Assembly: GCA_020853795.1 (NCBI GenBank)
Contig: JADYYF010000117.1
Span: 1 to 34,740 of the forward strand
Length of the DNA: 34,740 nucleotides
Source: Candidatus Zixiibacteriota bacterium
GTDB taxonomy: Bacteria > Zixibacteria > MSB-5A5 > CAIYYT01
Direction of reading: 5' to 3'
A program made the translations under genes and the position numbers. Position 1 is the first letter of the stretch. Every line of letters begins with the position of its first letter. The notes beneath the pieces are model-generated. The model saw nothing but the letters and a program-made list of their open reading frames with translations, did no database searches and had not been told where the DNA came from. This document shows positions 18,708 to 34,740 of the stretch, one piece after another.

Positions 18708-20237
18708 TTGCTGATCAGACGTATGAGAAGGAGTGGCGCTATCAGACGGTTGGCTGCGGCCGCGACGGCTCTGGTGATGACCGCAACGGCGCTCGCGGCC
18801 GCCGATCGTCCGACCCCCGATCAGGCCGAACAGACGTTGCGCGCGGGCAGCACCCGGTTTACCGCACACGAACTGCAGTTTCCACGACAAGATCGATATA
18901 TCCGGCAGGCGACGTCATCCGAGCAACATCCGTGGGTGACAATTCTATCCTGCTCCGATTCGCGCCTGCCGGTTGAATTAGTGCTCGACCTCGGGATCGG
19001 AGACGCCTTTGTCGTCCGGGTGGCCGGCAATGCCGCGGGGATCGACGAATTAGCATCAGTTGAATACGGAGTCGATCGTCTCGGTACGCCGCTGCTGGTG
19101 GTGCTCGGACACACTGACTGCAGCGCAGTAACGGCATGCGTCAAGAAAAGCCCCGCGAGCGGATATTGGCCGCAAGTGGTCGAGCAGTTTGACGGAGCGG
19201 TGACGCGTGCTCAGCGCCGGCTCAGTGGCATGCCGCCGGATGAAGAGACTCTGATCAAGTGCGCAATCGAAGAAAACGTCTGGCGTACGATCGAAGCGCT
19301 CATTACGCAGAGTCCGGCGATTTACAATCGCGTGCAGGATGGCCGGTTACGCGTTATCGGCGGGATCTACAACGTCGACAGCGGCAAGTTGCATTGGCTG
19401 GGCGTGCATCCACGGCAGCAATGTCTGGAACTGGCTGATGCGCCGCCGGCGTCCAAGATGGTGCCGGCCAAGGTGGCTGCCGTCGCCAAGGCGGTCACAC
19501 CGGCACATCCGGAGGGAATTACCAGCGATCTGGCACAATTGATGCTGCGGGAAGGCAACAAGCGATTCGCAGCCGGTGCGCGCACTTACCCGAATCTTCA
19601 TGAAACGCGGTTAGAGCAGGTCGCCGGTGGGCAGCATCCGTATGCGACGATTCTGTCCTGTTCCGACTCCCGGGTCCCGGTCGAGTGCATTTTCGATGCG
19701 GGGCTGGGCGACTTATTCGTCGTTCGCGTGGCGGGCAACGTCGCCGACGTCAACGAAATTGGGACAATCGAATACGGCGTGGCCCAACTGTCAACACCGC
19801 TTCTGGTCGTGATGGGGCACACCGATTGCGACATCGTCAGGGCAGCAGCAAGCGGCGAGAAATTCCACGGCCCGTTGGCGGAGTCGACGGATAACATCGT
19901 GGCGGCAGCACCGGGTGAAACGACTCAGTCCGCAGCGGCCAGGGGTAGCGATCAAGCTGCCGTGGCGGTGAAGTCTAACGTCCAACAAGCGATCTCCGAT
20001 ATACTTAAGCAAAGCGCCGAAGTGCGACACTTGGTGAGTACCGGAAGGCTGCAGATCATCGGGGCGGTCTACCATCTGGAAGACGGCTACGTCGAATGGT
20101 TGGGTCCGCATCCGCAGCAGAAACAGATTCTTGCGGCCTTCGCCAAGCCGGCACCGCCGAAGCGTGAACGCGAGCACGAACCGTGGCAGTATGGCGATGA
20201 TCAATCCCATTCGAACTATGACTATGACAATGATTAA
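18708..20237 (+). CDS. Exported tandem beta-class carbonic anhydrase (two catalytic domains)
   Basis: Reversible hydration of CO2 to bicarbonate. The 509-residue product has an Arg-rich N-terminus and hydrophobic signal (RRLAAAATALVMTATALAAA, residues 13-32), so it is likely periplasmic. Domain 1 (about 37-240) has zinc ligands Cys82, His135 and Cys138 (CSDSR and GHTDC) with the Asp84/Arg86 dyad. Domain 2 (about 265-480) has Cys318, His371 and Cys374 with its own CSDSR. Both therefore look active. A Pro/charged tail follows (REREHEPWQYGDDQSH). The start is TTG 18708 or the next codon CTG, just after AAGGAGGG; ATG 18723 is 19 bases from that site. An MCP gene follows 66 bases later. Confidence 0.93.
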   Translation: MLIRRMRRSGAIRRLAAAATALVMTATALAAADRPTPDQAEQTLRAGSTRFTAHELQFPRQDRYIRQATSSEQHPWVTILSCSDSRLPVELVLDLGIGDAFVVRVAGNAAGIDELASVEYGVDRLGTPLLVVLGHTDCSAVTACVKKSPASGYWPQVVEQFDGAVTRAQRRLSGMPPDEETLIKCAIEENVWRTIEALITQSPAIYNRVQDGRLRVIGGIYNVDSGKLHWLGVHPRQQCLELADAPPASKMVPAKVAAVAKAVTPAHPEGITSDLAQLMLREGNKRFAAGARTYPNLHETRLEQVAGGQHPYATILSCSDSRVPVECIFDAGLGDLFVVRVAGNVADVNEIGTIEYGVAQLSTPLLVVMGHTDCDIVRAAASGEKFHGPLAESTDNIVAAAPGETTQSAAARGSDQAAVAVKSNVQQAISDILKQSAEVRHLVSTGRLQIIGAVYHLEDGYVEWLGPHPQQKQILAAFAKPAPPKREREHEPWQYGDDQSHSNYDYDND

Positions 20238-31765: not shown

Positions 31766-32953
31766 ATGAGACGCGAACGACTCCTGCTGATAACGCTGGG
31801 CGCGATCAATTTCACGCACATCGTCGATTTCATGATCATGATGCCGCTGGGGCCGCAGTTGATGCGGCTGTTCGCAATTTCGCCCCAGCAGTTCTCAGCC
31901 TTGGTATCGACCTATACTTTCTCTGCCGGCACGGCCAGCTTTGTGGCGGCGTTCCTGCTTGACCGCTTCGACCGTAAGCGTGCTCTAATCACGGCCTTTG
32001 TTGGCTTCATTATCGGCACTTTCGCCTGCGCCTTGGCGCCAAACTATCACCTGTTGCTTTCCGCACGCGTCATTACTGGCGCCTTTGGCGGCATCTTGTC
32101 AGCCTTGATCCTGTCGATTGTCGGAGATGTGATTCCGCAAGAGCGCCGGGCCACGGCGATGGGGATCGTAATGGCCGCGTTTTCGGTCGCGTCGGTCTTC
32201 GGTGTGCCGTTCGGGCTCTATATTGCCACCCGCTTCAGTTGGCATGCGCCGTTTACTTTCCTGGGGTGTCTTGGTTTGATACTATTCGTGCCGATTGTCA
32301 TGGCGGTTCCCTCAATGCGCGAACACCTGGCGTCCGACCGGCAACATCCGGGTCCAGTCGCCGTGCTGACCTCGGTAGCCAAAAACGGCAATCAACTTTC
32401 GGCGCTTTGGTTTACCGTGATGCTGGTCCTCGGGCATTTCATCATCATTCCGTTCATCTCGCCGTTCATGGTGGCGAATGTTGGGTTTCGTGAGACGGAT
32501 CTGACTTACATTTACTTGCTCGGCGGCTTCGTTACTGTCTTCACATCGCCGCTGATCGGTCGAGTCGCTGATCGCGTCGGCAAGGCACAGGTGTTCACGG
32601 CCTTTGCCTTGCTGGCTCTGGTTCCTGTGTTCCTGATTACGAACCTGCATCAAACGGCCTTGCCCGTAGCTCTGGCAATAACGACGGTCTTCTTCGTAAC
32701 TTCCAATGGCCGTTGGGTGCCGGCAGTGGCCATGGTGACCTCCGCAGTATCGCCGCAGAATCGCGGCAGCTTTCTTTCGATCAACTCGGCCGCGCAGCAA
32801 CTTTCGGCCGGGGTGGCCGCCGCGTTTGGTGGAATGATTGTCGCGAAGGATGCTTCCGGTGCGTTGCTGAATTACCATTACGTCGGCTATATCGCGATAG
32901 CGATCTCGCTGCTGGCGATCCTGGTGGGGCGCCGACTGCATGCAGTTGCCTGA
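31766..32953 (+). CDS. Major facilitator superfamily transporter
   Basis: The 395-residue inner-membrane protein has 12 hydrophobic segments. The MFS loop 2-3 motif appears as LLDRFDRKRALI (residues 65-76), and TM4-5 has GAFGGILSALILSIVGDVIPQERRATAMGIVMAAFSVASVFGVPFG, the pattern of DHA1-type drug or sugar efflux proteins. A second loop motif, GRVADRVGK, lies in the C-terminal half. It would exchange a small substrate for protons; the substrate is unknown. No ribosome-binding site is visible before the ATG (TAAATACTATG). The selenoprotein-like rhodanese gene starts 52 bases after its stop. Confidence 0.92.
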   Translation: MRRERLLLITLGAINFTHIVDFMIMMPLGPQLMRLFAISPQQFSALVSTYTFSAGTASFVAAFLLDRFDRKRALITAFVGFIIGTFACALAPNYHLLLSARVITGAFGGILSALILSIVGDVIPQERRATAMGIVMAAFSVASVFGVPFGLYIATRFSWHAPFTFLGCLGLILFVPIVMAVPSMREHLASDRQHPGPVAVLTSVAKNGNQLSALWFTVMLVLGHFIIIPFISPFMVANVGFRETDLTYIYLLGGFVTVFTSPLIGRVADRVGKAQVFTAFALLALVPVFLITNLHQTALPVALAITTVFFVTSNGRWVPAVAMVTSAVSPQNRGSFLSINSAAQQLSAGVAAAFGGMIVAKDASGALLNYHYVGYIAIAISLLAILVGRRLHAVA

Positions 32954-33005: not shown

Positions 33006-33338
33006 ATGACTGATCCGACTCCTGCACGAGTGAGCGCGGCGGAAGTTCGCCGCCGCATGCTTGCCGAAGAAAACACCCTGCTGGTGTCAGTATTTCCGGA
33101 AGCCGTTCATCGCTTCTCGCATTTGGACGGCGCGATCTCGCTCGAAGCGCTCAATCGCCGTCTCGAGTCGCTTGATAAACGTACCAATCTCGTCTTCTAC
33201 TGAGCCTGAGTTGGTGATGAGAGCGCCGTCAGTTTGGCGGCGGAGTTTCTAGAGCGTGGTTATCTGAACGCGCAAGTCCTTGAAGGGGGCGTCGCAGCCT
33301 GGCATCAGGCAGGATTTCCGATCATTGAAACGGCATAG
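33006..33338 (+). CDS. Probable selenoprotein: rhodanese-like sulfurtransferase with UxU active site (two in-frame TGA)
   Basis: Read through two TGA codons (33201-33203 and 33207-33209), the frame gives a complete 110-residue single rhodanese domain. The N-terminal half is VSAAEVRRRM, TLLVSVFPE, HLDGAISLEAL. After VFY comes U66-A-U68-VGDESAV, then LAAEFLERGYLNAQVLEGG and VAAWHQAGFP, ending at TAG 33336-33338. In the closest rhodanese subfamily this loop reads YCxCPxxxSA, with the first Cys as the sulfur-accepting residue, so both TGAs fall on Cys positions. Frame, composition and similarity are intact on both sides, which argues against a decayed gene. A SECIS-like hairpin follows. Without recoding the product is a 65-residue fragment lacking the active site. 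The ATG at 33006 is preferred over TTG 32991; the ribosome-binding site is weak. Selenium insertion is inferred. Confidence 0.8.
33224..33242 (+). promoter_or_regulatory. Candidate bacterial SECIS hairpin of the UxU rhodanese
   Basis: CGCCGTCA pairs with TGGCGGCG (eight pairs including one U-G) around the loop GTT. The stem begins 14 bases after the second TGA and 20 after the first; the loop begins 22 and 28 bases after them. Bacterial SECIS elements lie just downstream of the UGA, with a G (and usually U) at the start of the apical loop for SelB contact, as here. Confidence 0.6.
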
Positions 33339-33588: not shown

Positions 33589-34209
33589 ATGGTTGCGACA
33601 GACATGAAACGCGGGTTCCCCAAGCAGCGATTCGAAAAGAGCGTCGAACCGCGGGTTAAGTGCGACGAAGGCGGATACTTCATCTATACCCTCAGCGAAA
33701 ACGTCAAAGTCTATTTCGATGATTACTACGGATTCCTCGAGCGGGCCGAGCAGCGCGCTCTGGCCGACATCGGCGATATCAAGGCCAAAGAGGCCGAACT
33801 TAAGCCGCACGAAACCGAACTGCGCTCCTACCTGTGCGCCCGCAAGAAAATTCTCGAAACGCTGCTGCGCACGGTGTACGATTTCTACACCGAAGCCAAT
33901 AATTTCGGCGTCGTCATGACCCCCTGGTGCTTTGGCACTGTGGTACTGGAGAAAGTGGAAGCATATCGCGACAAGCTCGCCAAGGGTAATGTCGAGGACA
34001 GCGACCTGCCGGAATACACCTACGACGTCGTGCGCTACATTGAAGAGATTTACCGCAAAACCTTGCTGGATACGTTTGACTTCCCCGAAAAGGCCTTCTC
34101 CATGCGCTGGCAGTATTCCGAGCTGCTCAAGCGCTATTCCAAGGCGCTGACTAACATCAGTGCCTCCCTGCAGTCGGTCATGATGCTCGTCAAGAGCTAC
34201 GGCAGCTAA
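33589..34209 (+). CDS. Uncharacterised 206-residue soluble protein under a sigma-54-like promoter
   Basis: Not recognised. There is no signal peptide or membrane segment. After a basic start (MVATDMKRGFPKQRFEKS) comes GGYFIYTLSENVKVYFDDYYGFLER, then a long helical body with many Glu, Lys, Tyr and Leu residues (LRSYLCARKKILETLLRTVYDFYTEANNFG), a short non-helical TPWCFG turn near residue 115, and further helices to the end (SASLQSVMMLVKSYGS). It looks like a mainly helical bundle. AAGGAG lies eight bases before the ATG. The gene stands alone between a sigma-54-type promoter and a strong terminator. Sigma-54 control is common for nitrogen, motility and stress functions, but none can be assigned here. 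Next downstream is a probable HD-GYP gene. Confidence 0.85.
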   Translation: MVATDMKRGFPKQRFEKSVEPRVKCDEGGYFIYTLSENVKVYFDDYYGFLERAEQRALADIGDIKAKEAELKPHETELRSYLCARKKILETLLRTVYDFYTEANNFGVVMTPWCFGTVVLEKVEAYRDKLAKGNVEDSDLPEYTYDVVRYIEEIYRKTLLDTFDFPEKAFSMRWQYSELLKRYSKALTNISASLQSVMMLVKSYGS

Positions 34210-34330: not shown

Positions 34331-34740
34331 ATGACGCTCCAAACTCGTCAACCAATCGGGCGCCACGCCCATTTTGACCACCCGGCGTTCCTGCCGATTC
34401 GCGTCGAGTCGCTTCGGGTCGATAAGATCCTGCAATTCGACATCTATGTCTACGTCGGCAAGGAGCTGGTCTTGTATCGTTCGCAGGAGCTTCCGTTTAC
34501 TGAGCAGAACCTGTCCAAACTGCGTGACAACAAAGTCGAGATGATCTACATCGCCTACGAATCACGCCACGCCTATCAGCGCTATCTCGAAGACAATCTG
34601 CCGGACATTCTGCGCGACCCGCAGGTGGAAGAGGTCAAGAAGGCCGAGATCCTCTATGACACTTCCAAAGCGTTGATCAAGGAAGTCTTCTCCAACCCCA
34701 CTTACTCGGAGAACATTAAACGGTCGCAGGACATGGTTGA
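34331..34740 (+). CDS. N-terminal part of a probable HD-GYP-type c-di-GMP phosphodiesterase (runs off the window)
   Basis: The frame is open from ATG 34331 to the window end, giving 136 residues. It contains FLPIRVESLRVDKILQFDIYVYVG, ELVLYRSQELPFTEQNLSKLRDNKVEMIYIA and YQRYLEDNLPDIL, the layout of the DUF3391-like or unnamed beta-rich N-terminal domain that precedes HD-GYP domains in many bacteria. A helical linker follows (VEEVKKAEILYDTSKALIKEVF). The catalytic HD-GYP domain itself would lie beyond base 34740, so the enzyme call is an inference from the N-terminus. No Shine-Dalgarno sequence is visible before the ATG. If correct it would hydrolyse c-di-GMP and so affect motility. Confidence 0.75.
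   Translation, partial: MTLQTRQPIGRHAHFDHPAFLPIRVESLRVDKILQFDIYVYVGKELVLYRSQELPFTEQNLSKLRDNKVEMIYIAYESRHAYQRYLEDNLPDILRDPQVEEVKKAEILYDTSKALIKEVFSNPTYSENIKRSQDMV

Follow-up and report, generated by a model that had tools for sequence, protein, structure and literature searches.

In the window (the whole stretch of 34,740 nucleotides that we analysed, from a genome of Candidatus Zixiibacteriota), we identified a gene that is very likely to encode a selenoprotein of the rhodanese family with selenocysteine at both chalcogen positions of the active loop (U66-A-U68); SelB would decode the two UGAs, apparently with the help of one SECIS-type hairpin. The support for this reading is comparative: the double TGA and the hairpin are kept in relatives, the frame is under purifying selection, and the genome contains the full selenocysteine (Sec) machinery. 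For the narrower claim that both TGAs of this gene are decoded as Sec, the same sequence comparisons make us confident. We also favour, with some reserve, a broader proposal: that this gene represents a multi-phylum subfamily of rhodaneses with a diselenide/diselenol UxU loop, in which one SECIS hairpin lets SelB decode two UGAs, Cys and Sec alternate at position 66, and Sec68 is constant.

The gene (33006..33338, plus strand) is a single frame that begins with ATG and ends with TAG. Its only internal stops are the TGAs at codons 66 (33201..33203, plus strand) and 68 (33207..33209, plus strand), which agrees with the original prediction of two in-frame stops, both TGA and one codon apart. With both TGAs translated as Sec, the product has 110 residues (MTDPTPARV...NLVFYUAUVGDESAVSLAAEFLERGYLNAQVLEGGVAAWHQAGFPIIETA). 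It belongs to Pfam's Rhodanese family (PF00581; 37.6 bits, with a cut-off of 22.2), and the match covers residues 12-101 and so spans both TGAs; as had been proposed, the frame and the rhodanese similarity continue unbroken to the TAG. The TGAs were also said to fall on the two Cys of a CxCPxxxSA loop. Homologs do have Cys at these positions: the first is Cys (TGY) in 46 CxU relatives, and both are Cys in L241 and in other CxC rhodaneses. The proline of that motif is missing here, as the loop of the window protein is UAUVGDESA (FYUAUVGDESA, with Val at the Pro site), while most relatives keep the Pro. In an alignment of 26 members, Y65, Sec66, Sec68, G85, L92, G94, G95, and W99 are invariant. 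The AlphaFold2 model (pLDDT 93) has a rhodanese fold, with a strand at 61-65 and a helix from 69, which would place Sec66 immediately behind the central strand and Sec68 just ahead of the helix. Foldseek matches the model to solved rhodaneses, including GlpE and 3ilm (E = 4e-7). The protein is small, has a single domain, and is probably cytosolic.

Among 133 genomes of Zixibacteria, the gene is found only in the source genome and in G033 (Candidatus Zixiibacteriota bacterium isolate B22T1B11). G033 is a distant genome, with 38-39% identity between the proteins, and it has both TGAs at the same positions. We also scanned 84,980 genomes, one per species, for the DNA pattern Y-TGA-x-TGA followed by G, LxGG, and W at the distances of a rhodanese. 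The pattern was present in 119 contigs, as compared to roughly 2 expected (as estimated from the pattern's information content), and 117 of the 119 are rhodanese frames. Nearly all have the motif YU[T/A/G/S]U, and in all 117, the 31 codons that follow it are free of stops. (The two others, L091 and L113, are non-rhodanese sequences that match by chance, with three and one further stops after the motif, respectively.) Given the same pair of TGAs in a distant member of the phylum, and 117 rhodanese frames where about 2 matches were expected, the double TGA is more than chance. UxU loci occur in about a dozen phyla, including Thermodesulfobacteriota and other former Deltaproteobacteria, Nitrospirota, Chloroflexota, Methylomirabilota, Planctomycetota, and Acidobacteriota. 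The genomes compared are all metagenome-assembled genomes or single representatives of species. Frameshifts or non-TGA stops in related genomes would have counted against the original prediction; we found none, and in the congener G003, the gene is simply absent. A search of the genome contigs with the back-translated read-through protein gave no match, probably because the Sec codons were read as Cys codons.

To place the UxU proteins among their relatives, we built a profile from the window's group and searched it against 95 genomes of Methylomirabilota and 395 genomes of Desulfobacterota. Methylomirabilota yielded 60 matches, of which 59 have one or two TGAs, and 46 of the 47 matches from Desulfobacterota have a TGA. 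Among the 56 loci that were read in a fixed register, there are 46 CxU, 9 UxU, 1 CxC, and 0 UxC. Thus, every single-TGA relative examined in the two phyla is CxU (46/46); nor did we find the UxC pattern anywhere in the 395 genomes of Desulfobacterota. When the motif residues were masked and a tree was built from 166 rows, the first position had to change between Cys and Sec no fewer than 16 times, and well-supported branches force 4 of these changes. Because the UxU rows came from the motif scan and the CxU rows came from two phyla, the frequencies of UxU and CxU in this set are not comparable. The orthologs L188 (CxU) and L122 (UxU) share 93% identity across 327 bases, with TGT versus TGA at the first position and identical hairpins. 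The counts, the tree, and this pair together indicate that the Sec that stays constant in the family is Sec68, whose position is common to UxU and CxU relatives, and that Sec66 is a variable addition, with position 66 toggling between Cys and Sec. Given that the single-TGA relatives examined are only of the CxU type and that the toggle is between TGT and TGA, a UxU gene is a CxU gene with a second Sec, apparently under the same hairpin. We compared UxU relatives in 28 independent pairs, which gave a pN/pS of 0.41 before the first TGA and 0.30 behind the second. This purifying selection means that the sequence behind the TGAs is maintained for the protein that it encodes, unlike in a pseudogene.

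The candidate SECIS element is a hairpin at 33224..33242 (plus strand) with a stem of 7 bp (33224-33230 with 33236-33242) and the loop AGUUU (33231-33235). It begins 14 nt behind the second UGA, and its loop is 21 nt from the second UGA and 27 nt from the first. Numbered after the second TGA, the pairs run from C15-G33 to C21-G27. The fold has an energy of -13.1 kcal/mol (z = -2.3). Compared to synonymous shuffles, it is only moderately stable (z = -0.7), so the support for it comes from the family. In 117 relatives, the hairpin is in one fixed register, with positions 15-21 paired with 27-33 around a five-base loop. The 117 distinct sequences all have G at position 23, in the loop, with U or G next to it at position 24. 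When wobble-wobble covariation was compared to shuffles, three stem pairs ranked at the top of all those tested (z = 10.0, 9.6, and 6.5; the next was 2.7). The published bSECIS model has a stem of 4-16 bp, a loop of 3-9 nt with G within its first two positions, a distance of 16-37 nt between UGA and loop, and a minimum free energy of -7.5 or below (PMC13188914). In stem length, loop, energy, and spacing to either UGA, the window's hairpin is consistent with this model, and 113 of 118 sequences satisfy its constraints, versus 53% of synonymous shuffles. The same hairpin is found in CxU relatives (G in the loop in 46/46) and is absent from CxC rhodaneses (2/15). These comparisons make it likely that one hairpin serves both UGAs of the UxU genes. 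The 27 nt between the first UGA and the loop is inside the published range; use of the hairpin by SelB at that UGA is putative.

The source assembly (3.56 Mb, 99.9% complete) is a draft in 215 contigs. All of the Sec genes that the original prediction called for are present and over their cut-offs. The tRNA-Sec, with anticodon TCA, is at C210:2613-2702 (71.6 bits); selA is directly downstream of it (462.6 bits, cut-off 267.9), and selB follows selA (283.5 bits, cut-off 242.25). On contig C44, we found selD (401.8 bits, cut-off 125). With strict scoring, tRNA-Sec is found in 106 of the 133 genomes of the phylum, including both carriers of the UxU rhodanese. Across phyla, 37 of the 39 tested genomes with UxU genes have a tRNA-Sec over the cut-off, and 36 reach at least 64 bits. 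The cut-off alone is weak evidence, as 5 of 14 control genomes also pass it under a lax setting, which is why we give bit scores and the stricter run. The SelD of the source genome is part of a fusion (L166:322-2532) in which a cysteine desulfurase, recognised by eye as NifS-like, comes first; this arrangement is a plausible direct channel for selenium.

Could the gene instead be an ordinary CxC rhodanese with two nonsense changes, or with sequencing errors, and no read-through? The assembly is a draft, and the UxU gene is sporadic, being missing from G003 and from the other members of the family (of organisms) that were searched. But the same two TGAs, with no other stop, are found in 117 other loci. 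This conservation refutes the pseudogene explanation for the family as a whole. Also, a decayed copy would not be expected to show purifying selection behind the TGAs or a covarying hairpin in a genome with complete Sec machinery. We consider this explanation very improbable for the window's gene. It is even less credible that TGA has become a sense codon (for Trp, Gly, or Cys) throughout the genome. The frame would be open under such a code, but other genes in the window end normally at TGA, such as the transporter gene that ends at 32953, and this rules out a change of code. Furthermore, the genome has tRNA-Sec and SelA, SelB, and SelD, and the TGAs of this gene and of its relatives are found solely at the two active-site positions.

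A third alternative, to which we assign a small probability, is that just one UGA encodes Sec, while the other terminates translation or is read by a near-cognate tRNA as Trp or Cys, so that the products are mixed. The hairpin does have the spacing that is used for a single Sec in the CxU relatives, and two UGAs that are six nucleotides apart should lower the yield of full-length protein. However, the first position is limited to TGA or Cys codons and the second to TGA. UxC was seen in none of the 395 genomes and in 0 of the 56 loci, yet UxU is common, which implies that the first TGA is retained together with the second. And the repeated change from CxU to UxU would be hard to explain if it destroyed the protein.

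Turning to families that have been described, the closest is rhodanese_LYCAU (NF041203; "rhodanese-like domain-containing protein form 3"; TKB26178.1), which is catalogued as CxU with one Sec (PMC13188914). Like the window protein, it is a rhodanese of small size whose Y-[C/U]-x-U motif ends in Sec. It differs in having Cys first and a single Sec, where the window protein has a TGA at codon 66 and two Sec. The window protein also belongs to a separate group and has no visible signal peptide. This cytosolic group, with about 29 relatives, has LLVCAY (LLVSVF in the window protein) in place of the VDVR of other rhodaneses, and the closest relatives of the window protein (45-49% identity) are from Methylomirabilota and a planctomycete. 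The remaining UxU relatives are of the VDVR type. NF041203 is the best NCBIfam match for the window protein, but at 50.4 bits it is under the cut-off of 115, and CxU members of the window's subgroup are also under it (49-67 bits). Several VDVR-type UxU proteins exceed it (142.7 bits for L047, 152.3 for L126, and 120.8 for L066). As judged from the members that were scored, the window's subgroup lies beyond the reach of the present NCBIfam models for selenoproteins. For this reason, such genes are probably annotated as truncated fragments.

Other known proteins are less similar. TsoB (NF045694), a fusion of rhodanese and DsbD with UxxxxU, is also rhodanese-related with two Sec, but the spacing of the Sec is different, a DsbD-like part is fused, and the score of the window protein is 21 bits, where the cut-off is 805. 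GlpE from E. coli (NF001195; PDB 1gmx), a thiosulfate sulfurtransferase, has the same single-domain rhodanese fold (Foldseek TM 0.73), but it has one catalytic Cys and no Sec, and the window protein scores 20.2 bits (cut-off 102). The UxxU redox proteins (Prx-like, FmdB-like, and NF041115) share the feature of two Sec in one redox motif, but they have thioredoxin or other folds and two intervening residues. Besides TsoB as the one double form, a 2026 review lists other single-Sec forms of rhodanese (PMC13188914). UxU is not in the text of that review, of the 2022 prokaryotic review, or of the GOS and Sargasso Sea papers, and in the open-licence literature we found no report of a UxU or double-Sec rhodanese. 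We conclude that UxU is a variant, absent from the 2026 catalogue, of the known CxU family of rhodanese selenoproteins. The double-Sec loop is widespread rather than a one-off.

How might the protein work? SelB and Sec-tRNA would read both UGAs, six nucleotides apart, apparently under the one hairpin. In the structural model, Sec66 is at the usual position of the rhodanese nucleophile. Because rhodaneses keep their catalytic Cys there, Sec66 most likely takes up the sulfane sulfur or selenium atom, as a persulfide or perselenide. Sec68 would then attack the loaded Sec66, so that (hydro)sulfide or selenide is released or the atom is passed on, and the resulting 66-68 diselenide would subsequently be reduced. 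We infer this resolving role for Sec68 from the spacing of the two residues and from the constancy of Sec68. That constancy, along with the switching of position 66 between Cys and Sec, also suggests that the two residues are probably a redox couple of the dithiol type. Transfer or reduction of persulfides or perselenides is our tentative proposal for the role of UxU rhodaneses, with slightly less than even confidence. Alternatively, the protein could be a genuine double selenoprotein that binds a metal or metalloid, or that delivers selenium to SelD, without catalysing transfer. Metal-binding proteins do contain some of the double-Sec motifs of bacteria (UxxU, NF041115; PMC13188914), and the fusion of SelD to a NifS-like desulfurase shows that selenium delivery is clearly in play in this organism. 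Against this, no genes for metal or selenium metabolism adjoin the UxU gene, and the protein has kept the rhodanese fold with a chalcogen residue after the central strand; we consider binding or delivery unlikely, but a serious competitor.

If the selenoprotein reading is true, then the single-base switch at position 66 provides natural Cys/Sec pairs for testing the benefit of the second selenium. It raises the question of what a diselenide does beyond what a selenylsulfide does, for which L188 and L122 (TGT versus TGA) are a natural comparison, and the question of whether one bacterial SECIS can direct Sec at two nearby UGAs.

The gene neighborhood did not indicate a substrate or a partner. 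A gene for an MFS transporter (31766..32953, plus strand; Pfam MFS_1, 188.6 bits) ends 52 bases before the rhodanese start and is possibly co-transcribed with it. The MFS gene is not kept beside the relatives, and among the UxU loci of the LLVCAY group, no neighbor is common to four or more loci of the subfamily. In G003, the closest relative, another gene occupies this place (by eye, it encodes an LptG-like permease), which implies that the window's copy was gained or that the relatives lost theirs; we found no trace of a decayed rhodanese in the flanking sequence of G003. Downstream in the window, 33589-34206 (with only a weak, sub-cut-off match to HybE) and 34331-34738 (no match) form a gene pair that is conserved together in the family without a rhodanese in front. 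Elsewhere in the window, 18708-20237 is a frame of 509 residues with two tandem halves that resemble beta-carbonic anhydrases (by eye, two CSDSR...HTDC blocks).

Among the VDVR-type UxU relatives, many have a hydrophobic, signal-like N-terminus, and a set is fused to multihaem cytochrome c. These cytochrome fusions occur in Deltaproteobacteria-type genomes. In L047 (3205-4821), a UxU rhodanese with a signal-peptide-like start is followed by a C-terminal multihaem cytochrome c (Pfam was checked for L047 only), and similar long C-terminal parts with CxxCH motifs are found in L048, L060, L075, L099, L108, L111, L161, and L163. From their sequences, fusions of the L047 type are probably periplasmic double selenoproteins that are linked to electron transfer. 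UxU rhodaneses are also fused to an adenylate/guanylate cyclase domain (L145:3313-4311) and to a YHS-like domain (L069:3520-4272; L150 is similar). L141:2092-3987 is a three-Sec protein that combines a UxU rhodanese, cohesin-like and HEAT parts, and a redoxin domain with an in-frame TGA of its own (WUGYC). Finally, L186 from Methylomirabilota (G203:C266) contains two CxU rhodanese genes, one from each group, as tandem selenoprotein genes that share a strand and are separated by about 380 bases.
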